Positions 3,901 to 59,800 of a DNA stretch of 64,000 bases are shown piece after piece; position 1 is the stretch's first letter, and every line of letters starts with the position of its first letter. The notes under the pieces are model-generated. The model made no database searches. It was not told where the DNA came from and saw nothing but the letters and a program-made list of their open reading frames with translations. This DNA is from Lutjanus erythropterus. Its lineage: Eukaryota; Chordata; Actinopteri; Lutjaniformes; Lutjanidae. The position numbers and the translations under genes are program-made. Location of the stretch: assembly GCA_020091685.1 (NCBI GenBank), contig CM034597.1:35829301-35893300 (forward strand), written 5' to 3'.

Positions 3901-4349
3901 TTAAAAGAGAAAAGAATTACTGCAATCCAAGAAAGATGACATAAATTACTTTCTTATAATTCTTGAGGTAAATAATGCGCCTGAGCTTTATTGTTGCGAT
4001 TACAAATAAACAATCTGTTGTATTGTGTTCAGGTGCTGGTGAAGGTCGGAGACAAAGTGGCTGTAGGAGACGCGCTGATGGTCATGATCGCCATGAAGAT
4101 GGAGGTGAGGGACTTCTGTTGCCTCACACACACTCACCTTTACTTGGTGTATCACAGGTTCACACACTCTGCGCTGCGTTTGTGGTAAAGTTGTTTCTGT
4201 TTTTGTCACTGCAGCACACGATCCGGGCGCCCAAGTCCGGTGTGATCAAGAAGGTTTTCTTCAGCGAGGGCTCTCAGGCCAATCGCCACGCTGCGCTGGT
4301 CGAACTTGAAGAGGAGGCGGAGGAGGAAGGGGAGGGGAGCGGCCAGTAA
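886..4349 (+). CDS. mccc1: 3-methylcrotonyl-CoA carboxylase alpha subunit, last five coding exons (5' part outside window)
   Basis: MCCC1 is the biotin-containing subunit of mitochondrial 3-methylcrotonyl-CoA carboxylase. It carboxylates biotin with ATP and bicarbonate for leucine degradation; the beta subunit then carboxylates 3-methylcrotonyl-CoA. Exons are 886-935, 1289-1426, 2578-2685, 4033-4104 and 4215-4349, all bounded by AG/GT and joining in one frame for 166 codons plus TAA. The translation follows the C-terminus of human MCCC1: the BT-domain end ([20 protein letters not shown]), the linker [16 protein letters not shown], and the biotinyl domain with MIAMKME. Biotin carboxylase and ATP-grasp exons must lie left of the window. 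The tail is longer and more acidic ([14 protein letters not shown]) than in human. Family assignment is near certain; orthology rests on my recall of the human protein. Confidence 0.95.
1289..1426 (+). CDS. mccc1: mccc1 exon: BT domain segment
   Basis: Acceptor ttctttcag, donor acg|gtatgt, 46 codons in phase 0. It reads from [16 protein letters not shown] through [19 protein letters not shown] to HLFST, matching the human stretch ending in IILENTIYLFSK. Confidence 0.92.
1427..2577 (+). other. mccc1 intron
   Basis: Intron between phase-0 exons. The left half holds a copy of dispersed element A (about 1705-1955). I see nothing specific in the rest. Confidence 0.75.
1705..1955. mobile_element. 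element A copy 1, short non-autonomous DNA-transposon-like repeat
   Basis: Shares its internal words (dATTATTTTCTTGGTTAATgg, TTTGGTCCA, AAGCCAAAGATATT, AGCTGGAACC, CTTGCTTGGCAAATGACT) with other copies in the window, where the element starts AGGGCTGCAA and ends in the inverted form. Both ends are worn. I know this repeat as common in percomorph genomes; I cannot assign the superfamily. Confidence 0.6.
2578..2685 (+). CDS. mccc1: mccc1 exon: linker into biotinyl domain
   Basis: Acceptor tctgcag, donor aag|gtgagt, 36 codons in phase 0. It carries [11 protein letters not shown] and ends in [10 protein letters not shown], the start of the biotin/lipoyl fold in this family. Confidence 0.95.
2686..4032 (+). 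other. mccc1 intron
   Basis: Contains a dispersed repeat (element D copy 1, about 2887-3320). The remainder is AT-rich without recognised content. Confidence 0.7.
2887..3320. repeat. element D copy 1, dispersed repeat
   Basis: Opens GACTGTAAATAGAGATGGATGG and includes GGCTGGCTGCAGTACAGGTCATAAA and a tgattgacagctgagctc stretch. The same words recur near 20705-21250. I recognise it as a common percomorph interspersed repeat; class not determined. Confidence 0.5.
4033..4104 (+). CDS. mccc1: mccc1 exon with biotinylation site
   Basis: Acceptor tgtgttcag, donor gag|gtgagg, 24 codons in phase 0. It encodes [13 protein letters not shown] followed by MVMIAMKME. The lysine of AMKM (codon 4096-4098) is the residue that holocarboxylase synthetase biotinylates in this family. 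Confidence 0.96.
4215..4349 (+). CDS. mccc1: mccc1 last coding exon
   Basis: Acceptor tcactgcag. It encodes [19 protein letters not shown], then [14 protein letters not shown] and an acidic tail ending GSGQ before TAA at 4347-4349. It matches the human end (KVFYREGAQANRHTPLVEF) apart from the divergent acidic tail. Confidence 0.95.
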
Positions 4350-17231: not shown

Positions 17232-17313
17232 TCAGCAGTGGGTGGCCTCAATGGGCGACAGCGTCAGGATGCTGCGATCGTTGGAGTAGAAGTTCTCCGT
17301 GTCGCTCCAAGAC
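17232..17313 (-). CDS. atp11b: atp11b last coding exon
   Basis: Acceptor ctgttttcag; one base completes Arg, then [20 protein letters not shown] and IEATHC before TGA (17234-17232). Human ends [20 protein letters not shown] then MDSSTC, so orthology to ATP11B specifically is well supported. Confidence 0.95.
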
Positions 17314-32300: not shown

Positions 32301-35300
32301 GTATGGCAATGCTGCTGTGACATTATGCGCTGAGGTTTCCCAGGTGATTTGACATTCATTCACACATTCATCCGTTCATGCAGTGGGGTGAGTAATGACA
32401 GTACCATGCTGTAACAGGCAAGAGGGGTGGAGGTCTCAAAAACACATTCATTATGTCGGCCTCTCACTAGAATGCAAAACATGCAGCGACTGAAATGCTT
32501 GATGTCACGTTATTTTGCTCCAAAACATGTTTATCTTCCCCCCTATCCCAATCACGGAGAATGCTGATTGGCTTGTCCAGGGCATGCAGTCACAGACATG
32601 ACACAAAAGAAACTGCTCCAACATTAACAGCACACATCTCTGCCAGTCGGTGCACTGCCAGTGTTAGAAACAGGCCTTGGTACGACTAAATCGAGTCCAC
32701 ACATGGGAGAAAGTATGGCATACGGATAATCATAAACAGGAGTGCTTGTTTCAAAAAGTCATATTCCTACTTTTTAGAGGCTGTCCATGTTACATTGTAA
32801 ATGTGATTTGAAGTAAATGTTTCAGAGGATTTAAGACTTTTGAAGACTTTGTGATTACTTTGACATAAATCTTTTCAAGTATATTTAGTCTAAGTTCAAC
32901 CTTAATGTTTTTTTTTTGTCACTTGTGGGTCAGAAATCTGTTTGCCAAATGTCAAGTTTTACTTGCTGTTATACAATTTTCTTTTTACTTATTAGCAAAG
33001 ACTTAAGTTGACTGCCGTGTTTTATGAGCAGTCACCAAGAACTACAAAAATGTAGAAAAGTAGATGGCAGGAGGAGTGGAGTTTACACTACAACTATAAA
33101 GCTGTGGTCCATATTCTGCCATCCACTTAGATGGAGATGGATAATTTTTAAAACTATACTTTTATAGTTATAGTTCTTGGTATCTATGACCCTTAATCTA
33201 GGGCTGCAATGTCTATAAAATGTTAGAAAATAGTGAAAAATGTCCATCCCAGTTTTTTAGTCCAAGGTGATGTCTTTGAATATGTTGTTCTGTCGGACCA
33301 AAAACACAAAAATATTCAGTTTAATATAATAAACAGAGAAAAGTGGGAGACCTCCATACTTGAGAGGTTTAGTAGTTTAATTCCTTTTAACCACTCGACC
33401 AGTTGGGCAAGTGAGTTGTATTTACTAGCCCAATATGGCATTTTACTTGCCCTAGGTGAGCTCCTTTTGTCAGTATACTTGCCTTTAGTTTGCTTTTTGA
33501 TCCAGCACCAGTAGAAGTTTTTTGGATGTGCGAGCCCTACACTCTCTGAGTCAGTTTATTTAATATTTGCTTACTAAGTATTAAAAAACATTAATTGATT
33601 GTCAAAGGACATCATGTAAAGTTGAGTGTTTGGTTTAGTAGATGTCATGAAGAAAAGTGCTTTTGTGGTACCAATCATACTCTGTTATGTTTCGCTGTAT
33701 TGTATATTCACATTTAAAATAACTGATCTCTGAGTGGTAAAAAGTCTCTAAAAACTTCACTGAGTTGCTGATTTGACAGCTTTTAACACCTGTTGGTCCT
33801 GAAGCACAGAAAGAGAAATGCAATGCAAAACTGCAAGCACTGGCACTAAAACCCTGTCAGTGAGTGAATAACCTAGGTGTTATCTTTAATATGACTCTTA
33901 GTTTTGACCCGGATATTGTAAATATGACTAAAACTTTATTTTATCATCTTAAGAATATTGCCAGAGTACGATCATTTCTCTCTCAAGCCATTACAGAGAC
34001 ACTAATTCGTGCTTTTATTACCTGCAGAACTGACTGTAAAGCTCTACTTTCTGGTCTCTCTAAGAAGAATATAGCTCAACTACAGTTACTACAGAACTCA
34101 GCTGTATGTGCGCTGATGAGGACCAGGAAGAGAGCAAACAGAATTGATTTTAAGATCCTTTTATTGGTTTATAAAGCTCTTAACGGTCTTAGTACTATGT
34201 ATTTATCAGATTTAATTTTATCCAATGAACCCTCCAGAACCCTCAAGTCTTCTGGCAGTGGCTTCTTTTTTTTTAAATAATTCCTAAAGTTAGAACAAAA
34301 ACTCAGGGTGTGGCATCCTTTCATTATTAATGTCCACATCTGTGGAACAGCTTGCCTGAAAGACCTGACCTATTGTTTTACTGTGTGAAGCACTTTGTGT
34401 TGCATTCTGTTTGCATGAAAAGAGTTATGCAAATTAAGTCTGATTGATTCATTGATTTTGCAAAATGCTGCAATAGATATCTATCTGTCTTCTGAAAAAA
34501 CAGTAGGAAATCATACAGAAGAAAACAAACAGTCCCTGTGGTGGTTTGTAAAAGTATTATATATAATAAATATGTAAAAGTGTTTAGGTATATATATCTT
34601 TAACCAAATGGAAGTGAAATGAAGTTTAGAGGGAGCAACATCAATGTATGAAAACAGGACGAGCCAGTAATGATGGCTGACCATACACAAAAATATACAG
34701 ATGCATCCCAAAAACTACTGATGTAGAAATATTCCTTTTGAATAAAGCACTCCCGGGATATCTGAATTGACTTCTAGATGTATTTTAAGCCCAGGGCTGA
34801 ATCACTCTCATCTCCTCTACCTAATTTTGCCCAGCTGGCTCTTGGCTCTGGACAGAGGCTGCAGAGCGATGAAGTCATCACCTATCGCCACACGGTTGGA
34901 GTACATCTACGCCAGAAGAATACACAGAGAGGAAAGGAGGAAGAACACACACAGACACACACACACAGGTTAGATATCAAACTTTCATACACACGCGCAT
35001 TCAAACACAGTTTATACTGAACCCACCTCTATAATAACACACACACACACAGACAAAGACAAGACGGGACAAAGGTTAGAGCAGAAACAATAAACACCAC
35101 ATCGGATTGGAAAATGCAGTTCCTTTTTTTCTGTAAAAACAAGAGGAGAGTTTTGAAAGGAGGAAGGTAGAAACATAAACAGTCTCCAGCTGGACGAATC
35201 AATACAGTAACAGCTGGGGTCTGCTAAGAAGTGACCATGCACACTGTGTGTTTGCCTATGTGCGTGTACTGGATCAAAAAGACTTTGTGCCGCGTGCGTT

Positions 35301-38300
35301 TGCAACCGAACAACATGCTGTTCCTGTAGAGAAGTGGGTAACTCATGACCACAGAGGCTGACAAAATTACAAACTCTTAAAACAATGTTACAGTCAGAAC
35401 ATTTTCTCTCTCTGTCTAGAATTTGAGTTACTGTGACATTTTAGTTTGTTTTCTTCCTCCAGGCTCTTGTCACATCGCTGGAAATATAATTTCCATTTTT
35501 GTGATACAAGTTGGAATGAGTATTAAATCTAACACTGCACACATAAGACAGTTTAACAACTCAGATGTTTGCCATTCCCTTTGCCATTTCATTCATTTTA
35601 ATGAGTTTTACTTTTGAGTCTGAGCCTGCAGACAATCTGGAGAAACACAACACCTATAAAAATTGTTTATGCACCTAAAACAATTGGTATTATTAGCAGA
35701 CAACTGTGGAAATTAGCTAGATTAACTTTTCTTAAGATGCTGCTGCATGCAAACGTTTTGATCGCACTGCAACATTTACCTAATCATTGATTGACTTTTT
35801 GGAGAAAGTTTCTTTTCTATACCTTATCTTTCATCCTGCCGATTTCACCTTGACAAAAAGGATCTAATCTTGGTTTTAGTCACTAAACCAGTGAGCTAAA
35901 ATAAGTCTGTGTGTGGAAGCTACTCACGCTTCGAAGATGATGAAAACTAAACTACTATTAAGAGCAGAGACGAGCAAAGACAATTTCAACAAAAAAAAGT
36001 TTGAAAACAGGGATTTGAGAACTGTTGTGACCAAGAGGGACTACGCTGCACCTTGTTGGCAGGCCAGCATGGTGCAGGTGAAACACAGGAAAACCTCTAA
36101 GAAGCAAACAGACAAATGCTGAATGAGCCTTTTTAAATCCAAGTCTTTAAAGGAATAGCTGGACAAAGACGTTCCCAGATAAGAACCTGTAGAAGTCTTC
36201 TCTGATCACACATTCTTACTTTCTGCCCGTCCTCCCCATGTTACCTGACTCTTCTGTGTGCTGGTGGGCTGCAGATGCCTGTAGAAAACCTTCTTCACCA
36301 CATCAGGAAAGAGACAAGTTATGACGATGATGATGATGGCGAACCAGGCTGAACCGCTGGACAGCAGCTGCACGAATACAAAGTACATGTCCTGGGTGTG
36401 GAGGAATGGCCTGGAGAAAGTGGAGGGGACACAATGGTTACATACTGCAGAAGAAAAGGGAGACAGCCATTTCATTGCTCTTTATCGGTGATGGAGAGCA
36501 TCAACAATTTGGTTAGTTGGAAAGTGACAGAAACATTTTGGCTGAATTAGCATCAGAACTGATGCTTTTAAGCTGGGGACACAACTGAACCATAAAAGAA
36601 AGCAGCCAGGCTCGGCCCCCTTCACTGTAAATTCAGGTCTGAATGTCAGCTGGAGTCTTGCTCTTTGAATTATTTTATTGTTCCCTGGAACCACAGAATT
36701 TAATAACCTGTGCAGATGTCCGACCACAAATATGAATTATGGTCCAATATCATCAGGATGGCTCCAACCAGCCTGTGAGTTGAGTGGACGGGGTAAAGCG
36801 GTTAAAACTGATCTGATCAATCCAGCAAACCACCAGAAAATCAAAGCTGATTCTAACAAAGCCTCAGCTGATTTATCTGCCAAGTGACAGGATTGGTGAA
36901 TCTGTAAATCAGCCTCTCTCATCCCAAGCCTCATCATCGGGCTGATAACAGGTTTTTACACCTCTCTTATTGTAGGTGAATCCTGTTCAGCGGGAATTTG
37001 GGGAAAAAGCACAAATGTTAATATTATCTAAAGTAAATAAGCGTTTCAACATATTTCAGTGGTCAACGTGAGTCCTCGTCTACCACAGTCTGCTGAGAAA
37101 GTATTTTCAGGGAGGCAGACAAAAATCTGTGAACACAATATATACAGAATAATATGCAGAATATGAAAACTGCTAACATTGATAACAGTCTTCTAATTTG
37201 TTTATCCTTCAGATGAGTCTGCAGTAGTCGTAGATATTTATTGGGTGATGGAGATGCGATACCCCGGTGGACACATTAATTTTTAATCTTTTCCAGAGTG
37301 ATGCTATGAAGGCTTGTCACCTTTGTCCACAACTCTTTGTCATACCAGCCACAAAGTCCATCTCCGTTCAAGCAGCACTTGAACACTGCTCCAAATTAAT
37401 CGCTGTTTATTTTAGTTTTAGTTTAATGAGACTGGAATAAAAGATATAAAGAAAAGTAAGCACCATAACTTTGTAACTGGCCTCCATAGTGCTTTCTACT
37501 GGTTAAACCTTAACCCTGTTTTCCAACACGTTTGTGACACTGAATGTGACACACCAAAAAAAACAAAAAATAAAAAACAAAAACAAAAAACAAAACAAAA
37601 ACAGGCTAACTCCTCTACTGTCAATGGGAAAGGAATCAATCGCCTAATTTTAGCAGGTTTACTCGCATATACAGTCCCACTCTATACCCTATACTAAATT
37701 TGCCATTATTAACTATTAATATAATTATATATTACTAGAATGAAAAAATGTGCTGATTTAATGCTTTAAATTTCACTTCATTTTTCTTTCTCAAGAGAGC
37801 CACATTGTTTAGGCACTGCGGCAACATATTCTCTCTGTGAACCTGCTGCATGGCCGCTGAGTATGTGTTTTGACAGTGTGGGAATTATTTAAGAGATTGA
37901 ACAGAGAGCTGGTGTAACACCATGGTAAGGCATATTCTGTGAAAATGTGAAAGCAGCGTCTTGTAAGAGCCTCTTCTTACCAGATGATGCCTCCGTAGAA
38001 GAGAGAGAAGATGAAGTAGAAGGCGATCGAACCCCACGTCACAAAATGGTTCATCCACGTCCAGAAATGAGTCTCTAAAGCAAGCTGTCATTACACACAC
38101 ACACACACACAGATACAGAGGAGGGGGAGGAAAATAAAGCCAGGTGTAAAACACCGAGATAGAGACAGGTAGGGCATCAATAAACTACATCAATCTGCCT
38201 CTGTTCTATCAAAAAAGACCTTGGCCCCAAACTGTGACAAATAATCTTCTGTTAATGGCCACTGACATCATCCTGATACTTCACAACAAACTGTTCTTCA

Positions 38301-45046: not shown

Positions 45047-47075
45047 ATATTAATGGACGCTAGGGGTGGGAGAGAAAAAAATCAATTCTCCTAAGTATCA
45101 AGATTTTTTTTCATGACATCTGAATCAATGTTTGGATTGCTGACTCTATTTTTTTTTCTGTATATAAATAACTAGCACTTACTCTGTTAGCTCAATGCTA
45201 ACAAATAATGGGAATTCCTGTTCATGCGCTAATGGAAATTAGCATCATGGTTGTGGTAAAAGTATCTTATTAAATTATCCCATTTTACCTCACATGCTTA
45301 AGATAATAAGACACGTGCTCTTACTTTCAATCATGTACTTAATCTGCTCTGTAGAAACAAACTAACAGCTGCTGACTTCACTTAGCTAACTCAGTCTGTT
45401 ACCCAAACCTTTATTAATTTTGGCCTAACGTCTTATTTTATTAATTATTTTCTTACGGCATGAAAAGTTAAAAGTAGCACTTTACTTCAAAGGGTATTTT
45501 ATTTACTACTTTTTCATCTTTCACATCATAACAATGCGGCTGAAATAAAAATCAAAGATTTAGGGAAATACAAATTACGTTAAACAGTTCCTAGAACTGT
45601 AAGATTCACCCTTTTCTGATGGTCTAGTGTTAAAAAAAACAAACAAAAATCTCAAAATTTTTTTAATATTAAATCGTAATACATGTCGAATCAGGCCCAA
45701 GTATAGTGCTAGTATCAAATTGGGAGTTAAGTGTATTGTCCCTGTCCTGGAGGACAATTACAATTGTGCGTGCCGTGAATGTTTACCTATGCCCACGTGA
45801 GCTTCCTGTATCATACTGACATCATTGGCTCCATCCCCAATAGCGAGTGTGATGGGTTTCTCTGGGGAGGTTTTTAAAAGACGCACCACCTGGACAGAAC
45901 AAAATAACATCTGGTAACTTCTGTGAATTTAAGTACATTTTCTGAAGAATCATCATATGAATAGAACATAGGCAAACATGAATATAACAGTTTATATCAG
46001 ATACACACACGTTATTTTCATCAGTCAACAAGACACCACTGAAATGATGGTGGGACCAGAGGTTGCACTGACTCAATATTTTCCGTCATTGACTGAATTC
46101 TTTTCAACAATGAGGGAAAAATCTGAAGACCATCCATCCTTCTGACACATGAAAACACTGAGGGCGATCTACCATGAGTGGCTGTTTTGGCTGTAGCAAG
46201 TGAGAGATCATCTTAAGCCACAGAAAGATGTATAGAGAAATCTTCAGCCAAATAAGGCTAAATAGCCTTAGTAACGATTATTAAATTAATCACAAACTAT
46301 TCTGATAATCGATTAATTGTTTTGAATAATTTTAAAGAAAAAAAAAATCTAGATTCCAGCTTCTCAACTGTGAATAGCTTCTGGTTTCTTTATTCCTCTA
46401 TGAGAGTAAACTGAGTATCTTTGGGTTGTGGACAAAACACCATTTTCTGTTACTTTATGGACCAAACAACTAGTCCATTAATCAAGAAAATAATCAACAG
46501 ATTAATAGATAATGGAAATAATCGTTTGGTGCAGCCCTAAGGCTAAATAAGTCCTGCCTGCAGATTGCACAAAGGAGATGGAGAGAACCCGGCGCTGTTG
46601 GCAGAAGAGCTGTCGACTCCATCACTCTGAGCAGCACGCATGGGAACGAATTACAATATAATATAGTTCAATATATTTCTTGCATTATCCCTGAGTCTGA
46701 ATTTCTAAATTTGTCGCTCGTCACTTTTTAGAAATAATCGCTAAGAGGGTCTGACAAGCTGCTAAATCTAACACTACCAACTTGGTGGCACCGCTAAATT
46801 ATGATGTGGTTGATAAATGAGGTGAAAAAAAGAGGGATTGATACAGTGGAGGATGAAGGACAAGCAAGTGTCTAAAACTACGTTTATCAGCCAGCTGCAG
46901 CGCTTTGTGTTGTCAGCAGACCTCCACTGTTGACATGACTGCATGATCAGTTTCTCTGTTCTTCTTTTCTCTCTTTTTACAACTCTGTCCGCCACCATGA
47001 TGGACAGCAAGAAAATCCAACAAAACTTTTGGGTTGGACCATCCAAAAAGTCACTTTAAATATGAGGGTAATGTA

Positions 47076-47112
<37 letters not shown>

Positions 47113-47780
47113 CAGAGGACTGGTACCTTAGCTTTCTGCAGAGGGGCCATGCGGCAGCACAGCACAGCTGAACAGTTTTTACAAACTTCCATAAAGAGCT
47201 TCTCGTGTTCCCTCAGCGCTAAAGACAGACTGGCCCCGTCCACGACTAACCCATGCTGTATGACATGGTCCTCCTTTATTCTGGAAGGAAAATGGAGAGA
47301 AAGAGTTTGAAAAGGACAGAAATGAGAAGAGACAGATAATAAGAGGAATGGAAATTACTACCATCTAATGCCTTATCAGATTTTATTGTTACTTCACTCA
47401 TCAATGTATTATTTTCTGACATAAATGTTTTATTTAATTTGCACTTGTTAGAGATACATCCTGCTTTTGTAGTGTGAGTCTGTGTTTTGAGGATTCATCA
47501 CTTAGGAGCACTTTTAAACTGTGACAGCCTCATTTTTTGTTGGTGCAAATTATGTCGTAGCGCCTTAATACATACAAACATCAATCACTATAGCAACAGC
47601 TCTTCTTCTGCCCACAGCCTTTATGAAAGGAACCAAAGCATTTAACTGATGAAGTCAGCCTGTTCAGATTTTTATGCTGCATCTGAAACAGCAGCACTTT
47701 GAGCCTGGTGACTTCTGAATTTTCTTGCAGAAATTTGATTTGCAGAAACTTCTTCCCATAATCTTCCCATAAACTATATG

Positions 47781-56800: not shown

Positions 56801-59800
56801 GGAAAAAGACTGCAATAAAGGCTGCTTAAATCGGCTAGCTTAGCTGGTTCTCCAGCCCACGCACGCCGACTATTTGAAATTTTCAGAAGAAACTCTGATG
56901 TAACTGTACCTCTTTGCTGCTTCTACCAAAGCTTTCTCATCCGGGGAAGAGGCGTAGTATTCCATGTGACTGGACGAGAAACCGTTTGCGTGGGAGAATG
57001 GATCTCCTCCCCCGACCACGCAGTCTGGCTGGTCGTAGCTGATCTGAACCGTGTGACACAACGACACCGCCTTGAGGAATAACAATTCATCGCCAATCTG
57101 AATGGAAAGACAGCGAGGAAGGATGACAGATTAAGAGACACTATCAAACACTCTCAAATCTTGTACACATACAGTGACATACTGTATGTCTCACTTAATT
57201 AGCAAAGAGCAACCTTTAATTGGTTGGTGAATAGCTTATAATGCACATATTGTGTGTTTGCACATTTTATCTATAGTCTCTCTATTGTATTATGGTAAAA
57301 AGCCTAAGGTGAAAAGTCATCCCTGACATTAGAGGTTAATTTGTTCATATGCTCTGGTTGTGCTTGTTTGACAGCAGCAGTGAGAACAGTGTATATAAAG
57401 TAGGTCTCTGCTGACAGAAAATAAATATAATGGGGATATATATGTATACTGGATATGTGACTTACCAGGTGAGGCGTAGAACCATCTGGTGAATCTTCAG
57501 TCATTCCCTCTGGTACCAGTTTTCCATTAACTTCTCGGTACTTTGTTCCGTTAATTGAACACTCACGGAAGTGCATCTCATTTTCGGTTAGCGTACCCGT
57601 CTTATCTGTAAACACATACTCCACCTGGGAAACAGAAACACACGCGCGTGCATATAGGTTGAGTGCTGTGTGGTTGCTGAGTACTAAAGGTGAAGCAGAG
57701 TTCACGTTCCCAAAGAAGTGAAACTTTGTGTTGAAATATGCGCATAAATAGAAGCACTTGAATTATGAATGAATTATTCCATCTTGTGAAGGGCTCGTTG
57801 CAGGGGTGAATTAAAGTCTCAATAATGAATTCAAAACTCAAGTCTTCTTCAAAAACAATCCAAGGCACACTGTCAGCTCCTGTATGTGATCAACAGAAAC
57901 ACCTAACATCGCTTCCGCTCTACAGTCTATTATGTCTGTTCCAAGTTTCTTGTCATACGGATCCCTTTTCTGTGGGAGGAGCTTAGATGGAGGCAGAATA
58001 ATTCCCAAACACATCAGCTAAAACTAGCTAGCACGTTTTGCTGGTTTACTTCTTAACAATGGATGAAAAAAATACAAGCTCATCTGAATGTGTACGGTCA
58101 CTCACTCTTCAGAACCAAGAGTGCTACTTAAAAAAAGTTCACATTATCCACTGGGAGTGGACTGGCTAACCCGTACAAGCTCACTCAATGGATCAATGAG
58201 CTTCCTACAATTGACAAAGAGTTAGTGATTGACGAATATATTGATTACTGGCTGAGTCCATCGTGCCGTTCTAGCTCAGGAAGCTGCCCTTGGCTGGAGT
58301 TCGGGGTGCTGAGCTGGGAGTATGAGTGAGAATAAAAAAGAATGTAAAACTATACCGTTTTCACATCTGACCCACTGAATCAAGGATTTATTTTGACCAA
58401 ACCAGAGTTGGTGATTGTTAGAACAGTGGACAGACTGCCTAAAACTGTTCTGGAGAGTTTTATTTTGTTTCTTTCTGTTGAGTTTAAATGAAATGTGTCT
58501 TACAGAGTTAATAAGGCTGTTAAAGCTCATCTTTGTTTGGTAAAAGAGAGAAACTTGAATTCAGGTGATTGAGTGTATTTTTATGTTCAATAAGAAAAAC
58601 AGATGTGAGAATATCTACCTTCTTTCATTTTGTGAATTCATTTCGCTGATTTTGTGGCTGCTCACTCACATCCCCCAGCTTTTGTCTTGTATTTTTTTGA
58701 CTAGCAGTGACAGCTGGTATGCAATAAAACCTCAGTTTTGAGCCATTACTGCTTCGATTTTGGCACCCAAACAGCACAAGAAGATCACATTTTAGCTTGG
58801 TTATGTGACCTACTACTAGTTTTTTCTCCAGCTAACACTGTGACATAATCATGACGTCCCCCATTAAGGGTCTGTGGTCATCTTTATTGCAAAAAAATGT
58901 ACATTAAATTACATATTCTACAGAATATCTAACTTGAAGACTCTTTTCAAGTTAAGAGAAATGACAGATACAGATATTCAAATTGTGTTTAGTGTATGCA
59001 TATCTATGTTTCTTCTCTCCTTTGTCATAGGTATGTGTTCCTGCACTTCTAATCCATACCTGCCCCAGCTCCTCATTGAGGTCAGAGGTGTTGACCTGAG
59101 CTTTCTGGTCGCTCTCCTCGTGGTATAGGTCCAAATCCCAGCCAATGAAAAAGGAGCCCAGGAACTTCTGCATCTCCACAGTAACGTAGAGCGAGATGGG
59201 GATGATGAAGTTGTAGAGGACCAGAAAGGCCAAGAAGTCTGAGATGAACTTCAAGATCTAAAGAAGGATGAGAGTACATTTTATCAGAATGAGACACAAG
59301 AGGAGGGTGACACACACGTAACAAGACAAAACACACAAAAATGAGTGAGTCAAACAAGATAGGAAGATAAAGCAACGTCAAAGTAGGAGCAAGAGAAAAG
59401 ACAAAACAACTGAGGAGGAGGATGATGATGAGTACAAAGCAGGACAATAAAATTTGTATATACCTAAATAATAGTGCTTTTCAAGTGTTTGACATCATCA
59501 TTTGACATGAAAAAAACAGACAAGCACTTGGTGATATTTTAAGCACAATCTTAAGGTTAGATTATAACTATGCACCTTTTTTTTGGAGAAATGACATGTC
59601 TAACGTTTTTACAGTATTATTTTTTGTTTTCTTATTTCTTATATATCTTATATCTTATTTTTCTCTGCACAACTGCTGAAATTCTGTCACATCTTAATGT
59701 TTTCATTCAGCATTTTAATCCTTTAAGAGGAGAAAAAGATTAAAATTGAAACATAAATTTTGCTGAGACATATCTAATGAAAAAAAAAAACAATGGAGAA

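Follow-up and report, generated by a model that had tools for sequence, protein, structure and literature searches.

A candidate alternative coding exon for the cytosolic tail of the flippase gene atp11b in Lutjanus erythropterus

Introduction

C-terminal variants of the ATP11 flippases were reportedly described by Takayama in 2019 and by Okamoto in 2020, and cysteines situated near a membrane helix are common sites of S-acylation. In ATP11C, a PKC-dependent di-leucine motif of the tail (SVRPLL) drives endocytosis, according to PMC5680300. For ATP11A, a section of PMC9035003 cites Okamoto 2020 for the control of its location by the C-terminus, and describes for the human gene several 3' exon choices (NM_015205 and NM_032189) together with an extra exon of 104 bp.

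The locus described here, an atp11b gene with a candidate alternative exon behind its last membrane helix, resembles ATP11A, as presented in that section, in having several exon options at its 3' end, and the 104-bp exon of ATP11A leaves a remainder of two when divided by three, as do the two atp11b exons of 86 and 164 nt compared below. It differs in that the ATP11A variants were seen in cloned RT-PCR products, whereas the atp11b candidate is predicted from sequence. In PMC5680300 it is a short tail behind TM10 that controls the endocytosis of ATP11C, and the atp11c-like locus of the present genome likewise combines a tail containing SARPLL with a second tail exon; unlike ATP11C, the segment encoded by the atp11b candidate contains, by eye, neither a [DE]XXXL[LI] di-leucine nor a YXXphi motif, and a sorting role for it is our suggestion.

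An ATP11B isoform is already in print, since the title of one reference calls RFBP 'an ATP11B isoform', and Table 1 of PMC5352146, on M. tuberculosis infection of human macrophages, includes ATP11B among the genes with switch-like splicing; the passage concerned does not name the exon. Neither a description of the candidate exon nor its peptide core was found in the open-access literature searched, and the exon was not found in passages of PMC12424579, PMC9288385, PMC12222028 and PMC13247117. It may be present already in predicted gene models. A comparable exon may exist in mammalian ATP11B, a possibility to which we gave no weight.

Results

Gene identity and canonical tail

The window, i.e. 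the whole stretch of 64,000 nt that was analysed, carries on its minus strand a gene of which seven of seven translated pieces (64000-36247) had chains of ATP11C (Phospholipid-transporting ATPase IG) as their top match in PDB, and the gene is therefore a class-6 P4-ATPase (ATP11 type). The exon boundaries in the pump core are approximate, having been placed by PDB alignment and splice score; the exon starting at 57097 has no good donor, and its end was set at 56871 in the comparison of frames and GC, and at 56900 in the Markov, shuffle and retrained-table tests. When used in tblastn, the tail of human ATP11B matched exons at 24348-24256 and 17321-17235 (E 7e-8 and 9e-8) and also the end of TM10 (E 0.004), and the tails of ATP11A and ATP11C reached a best E of 0.05 in the window, all three queries being approximate. 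Judging from this Cys-rich tail of the ATP11B type, which is unlike that of ATP11A or ATP11C, the gene is atp11b, and the name that it had received in the first-pass annotation is thus borne out by both the PDB matches and the tail search.

The TM10 exon of atp11b (36410-36245, minus strand) matches the PDB chains of ATP11C in phmmer and ends in phase 0; its match to Pfam PhoLip_ATPase_C (27.7 bits) lies slightly below the cut-off of 28.3. Its donor, CAG/gtaaca, starts at 36244 and scores 2.9 bits, 15th among the 19 donors scored (one atp11b exon without a good donor was excluded), where this and all other splice scores come from approximate textbook weight matrices and not from a trained program; the donor had been called sub-optimal, which is mildly true. 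The canonical tail continues with the Cys-rich exon (24375-24212, minus strand; 164 nt, phase 0 to 2, ending in SRSN), which has an acceptor of 9.4 and a donor, CAG/gtgggg, of 6.6, and it finishes with the last coding exon (17313-17232, minus strand), which ends with a TGA at 17232 and can be joined in frame from either the Cys-rich or the candidate exon.

Position, frame and acceptor of the candidate exon

In the intron behind the TM10 exon, 29 open codons and a TAG (34906-34817, minus strand) follow a pyrimidine-rich acceptor in phase with that exon; open frame, acceptor and phase had all been claimed from a first reading of the letters, and all three held on translation and splice scoring. 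The candidate exon starts in phase 0, straight at the TM10 exon junction, and, if it ends ahead of the TAG as discussed below, it comprises 86 nt (34906-34821, phase 0 to 2). Its acceptor AG lies at 34908-34907, with a score of 2.4, and closes a UG- and pyrimidine-rich region of 75 nt that is free of any further AG (34981-34907, minus strand), near the far end of which there is a branch-point-like CTAAC (34973-34969). AG-free zones of at least 75 nt precede 15 of the 709 AGs of the intron, the candidate's acceptor included, as against 7 of 20 atp11b exons. Low acceptors also occur elsewhere in the family: the homology-supported short tail exons at the paralogous loci C6 and C8 (see below) have acceptors of 0.9 and 0.7, compared with 2.4 for the candidate.

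Upstream of the acceptor, UG repeats and a CUCUCU tract are present at 34926-35052 (minus strand). Tracts of these types are often bound by splicing regulators (CELF, TDP-43, PTB), and regulator-type tracts at this place would suit a regulated exon.

Coding character of the candidate exon

An open frame is by itself nothing special at this locus, since the 11,869-nt intron contains 14 ORFs (the candidate included) that are in phase 0, reach 29 codons or more and have an acceptor at least equal to that of the candidate. The codon score of the candidate was about +13.2 to +13.3 bits in the right frame, the remaining two frames giving -5.9 and -2.7 (per codon 0.47 bits vs -0.22 and -0.11), and the runner-up among the 14 ORFs scored -4.9; one antisense frame of the candidate also scored +7.8 (0.28 per codon). 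Twenty-one exons of atp11b span -0.24 to 0.69 bits per codon, among which the candidate would rank third. A retrained table, limited to the 823 codons up to TM10, gave the candidate 13.1 and placed it first among 42 ORFs of the intron. When the intron was imitated 150 times by a second-order Markov model, no copy contained a candidate that reached its score; of 5000 stop-free shuffles of the exon that preserved composition, 17 did. The GC content is 53% in the candidate and 39% in the intron, 4.3% of whose windows attain that value. The 29-aa peptide matched only itself in the genome (938 Mb, 444 contigs) at E<=10, which indicates that the candidate exon is no repeat, and it had no match in PDB or Pfam.

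The codon test is imperfect: in one of three paralogue introns, that of C8, it gave 12.1 to an ORF of 72 codons that lacks homology support, and so ranked it above a homology-supported tail exon (5.4), and the short tail exons of the paralogues had low codon scores or fell outside the top five. Because of the codon and acceptor evidence combined, we favour the candidate as a real coding exon, and consider this probable.

Tail exons of the ATP11 paralogues

When the TM10 exon was compared with the genome, it matched, besides itself, loci on C24 (57%), C6 (53%) and C8 (42%) and, weakly, C17 (36%, E 0.09). We searched 30 kb from the TM10 exon onward on C24, C6 and C8 for tail exons, all of which are predictions from sequence, and each of the three paralogues had two predicted phase-0 tail exons at the homologous junction codon. 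C24 and C6, which are ATP11A-like by the approximate tail queries, have short tail exons of 25 codons, ending in STIFMLSQTSSRISF or STIFMLSQSSSRMSF before the stop, and long ones of 92 or 90 codons, both ending in GPETSV before the stop. C8 has a tail exon of 29 codons, ending in STIFMLSQTASTHSFSWSD, and another of 34 codons, ending in SARPLLMRTFSDESNTVI, each again followed by a stop; it is ATP11C-like and holds SARPLL (cf. SVRPLL of ATP11C in PMC5680300). The STIF exons are alike on C24 and C8 (a match score reached in 0 of 2000 shuffles), and so are the long exons on C24 and C6 (0 of 1000).

The short exon with STIFMLSQ is present in both ATP11A-like copies and in the ATP11C-like gene (L007:1142-1216; L010:8049-8123, minus; L013:2422-2508), which suggests that at least one alternative tail is older than the split of these paralogues. 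That tail exons are predicted in pairs in all three paralogues suggests that this architecture is family-wide, and supports the atp11b candidate as a real exon. As four of the four ATP11-type genes found in this genome have at least two predicted tail exons starting from one and the same codon, the choice of tail looks like an old habit of the ATP11 family, not an accident arising gene by gene.

The candidate exon itself showed no significant similarity to the paralogue tail exons with which it was compared, the best score being reached in 102 of 1000 shuffles with gaps and in 138 of 2000 without. A homology between DDFIALQPL of the candidate and SEFTPLASL of a paralogue, suggestive by eye, was rejected on the same grounds, as it fails the shuffles. 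We also rejected AG/GTCTGA as the end of the long tail exons of C24 and C6, where reading continues to the common GPETSV and stop. These long exons (L007:3145-3420; L010:2680-2949, minus) have a divergent middle and an identical end, GPETSV, which we take to resemble a class I PDZ-binding end.

Stop codon or splice donor

The TAG with which the candidate had been proposed to end lies at 34819-34817 and overlaps a possible donor, TAG/GTAGAG (34823-34815, minus strand; the GTAGAG itself at 34820-34815), and the location of the stop within this possible donor, which the first reading of the letters had overlooked, alters the predicted protein. The donor is weak, with A at +5 and a score of -0.6, at the bottom of the range of atp11b donors; AAG/GTACCA at 47126, which scores lowest among the atp11b donors placed by homology, equals it to one decimal. 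Another atp11b donor, TAG/GTAAAC at 45786, is also preceded by TAG, and in the atp11c-like paralogue the TM10 exon is followed by CAG/GTAGAG, a hexamer identical to the candidate's donor. Read-through of an exon that ends in phase 2 at a GTAA or GTAG donor will always meet such a stop.

The 86-nt candidate and the 164-nt Cys-rich exon are both 2 mod 3, run from phase 0 to phase 2 and end in AG. The candidate joins the last exon open and in frame, a phase fit that has a one-in-three chance of arising by accident. Via the candidate exon the tail would have 55 residues, compared with 81 via the Cys-rich exon; inclusion of both exons would shift the frame and lead to a stop within the Cys-rich exon (64 residues), and skipping of both would give 21 residues in another frame. 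Since only the use of one exon at a time keeps the frame, the two act, on paper, like mutually exclusive exons. They resemble such cassettes in their equal phase class, by which either one maintains the frame into the last exon, but unlike known mutually exclusive pairs they are dissimilar in sequence (their score was reached in 1183 of 2000 shuffles) and about 10 kb apart. The joined tail of 67 aa had no relative in viral contigs (10 pattern matches) or in those of prokaryotes (64 pattern matches), 0 of these matches being confirmed, as is expected for an animal gene.

We searched for comparable cassettes with an acceptor of at least 2.4, a donor of at least -0.64, a length of 40-250 nt and compatible phase. 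The intron of the candidate contains two, the other of which scores -5.8 on codons; this count is not above that of Markov introns (mean 2.87), and it is the codon score alone that stands out. In the remaining noncoding DNA of the sense strand (46,682 bp) there are 10 such cassettes, with a best score of -2.2, and among the 26 that the window has on its plus strand only one surpasses the candidate, namely the one that holds an exon with a Pfam biotin domain.

Discussion

The explanation to which we give about an even chance is that atp11b has at 34906-34821 an alternative coding exon, a cassette that substitutes for the Cys-rich exon while the protein retains its final 27 residues. The TM10 exon (36245) would then be spliced to 34906, and AG/GTAGAG (34820) to the last exon (17313). 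The Cys-rich exon encodes six cysteines and the candidate none, and choice of the candidate would drop six candidate S-acylation sites shortly past the last membrane helix; in their place would come a cysteine-free segment, with an acidic-hydrophobic part (GDDFIAL) and a basic, Ser-containing one (SRAKS), and the end of the protein would remain constant. Given the loss of these cysteines, and given that the tails of sister proteins decide on endocytosis or location, we infer that the swap would alter anchoring of the flippase in the membrane or its sorting, and that the pump would be untouched. Use of the candidate exon in RNA, its mutual exclusion with the Cys-rich exon, S-acylation of the cysteines and an effect on trafficking are what we would predict from this arrangement.

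Alternatively, the exon might be real and its TAG used, so that atp11b ends in SQLGKIR, either in a terminal exon that has a poly(A) site of its own, or with a later donor followed by non-coding exons. The paralogues lend this form some weight: their short tail exons, at the equivalent junction and before the longer tail exon, end in their own stops after 25, 25 and 29 codons, where they lack a donor, and thus favour the stop-containing form as first proposed; unlike the cassette reading of atp11b, the ATP11A-like tails of the present genome are stop-containing exons. Poly(A)-signal-like motifs are also found beyond the TAG, ATTAAA at 34216 and AATAAA at 34165 (601 and 652 nt from the stop). 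Against this form, the stop lies exactly where a phase-2 AG/GTAG donor would put it, a context that is infrequent by itself (the two tail introns contain 422 ends of ORFs with at least 15 codons, and in 7 of them AGG precedes the stop), and the phase also happens to fit the last exon. Termination at the TAG is in our opinion possible, though on the unlikely side. Of the original proposal of an alternative tail exon for atp11b, the exon thus gains support, both from its own coding evidence and from the tail exons of the paralogues, and the end of the protein at the TAG is made doubtful by AG/GTAGAG.

That the candidate is instead a pseudo-exon, open by chance, preceded by a tract rich in TG and pyrimidines, and left unspliced or spliced as noise only, seems improbable: the 13 other phase-0 ORFs behind comparable acceptors, the weak donor and low acceptor, and the similarly scoring ORF without homology support in a paralogue intron (12.1) speak for it, but against it stand a codon score reached in none of the Markov introns and in few shuffles, third rank per codon among the atp11b exons, the long AG-free zone at the acceptor and the paired tail exons predicted in three paralogues.

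If the cassette exon is used, ATP11B would join its sister flippases as a pump whose cytosolic tail is picked by splicing, and it would offer a clean comparison, namely the same pump with the same end and with the cysteine cluster either present or absent. More speculatively, ATP11B might possess a conserved and regulated either/or pair of exons after the last membrane helix, a Cys cluster as opposed to a cysteine-free sorting segment, through which splicing places the flippase on different membranes; we hold this extended scheme to be unlikely.

Outside atp11b, the plus strand of the window carries at 4033-4104 an exon of a biotin-dependent enzyme (Pfam Biotin_lipoyl), which may belong to mccc1, a neighbour of ATP11B in vertebrates.
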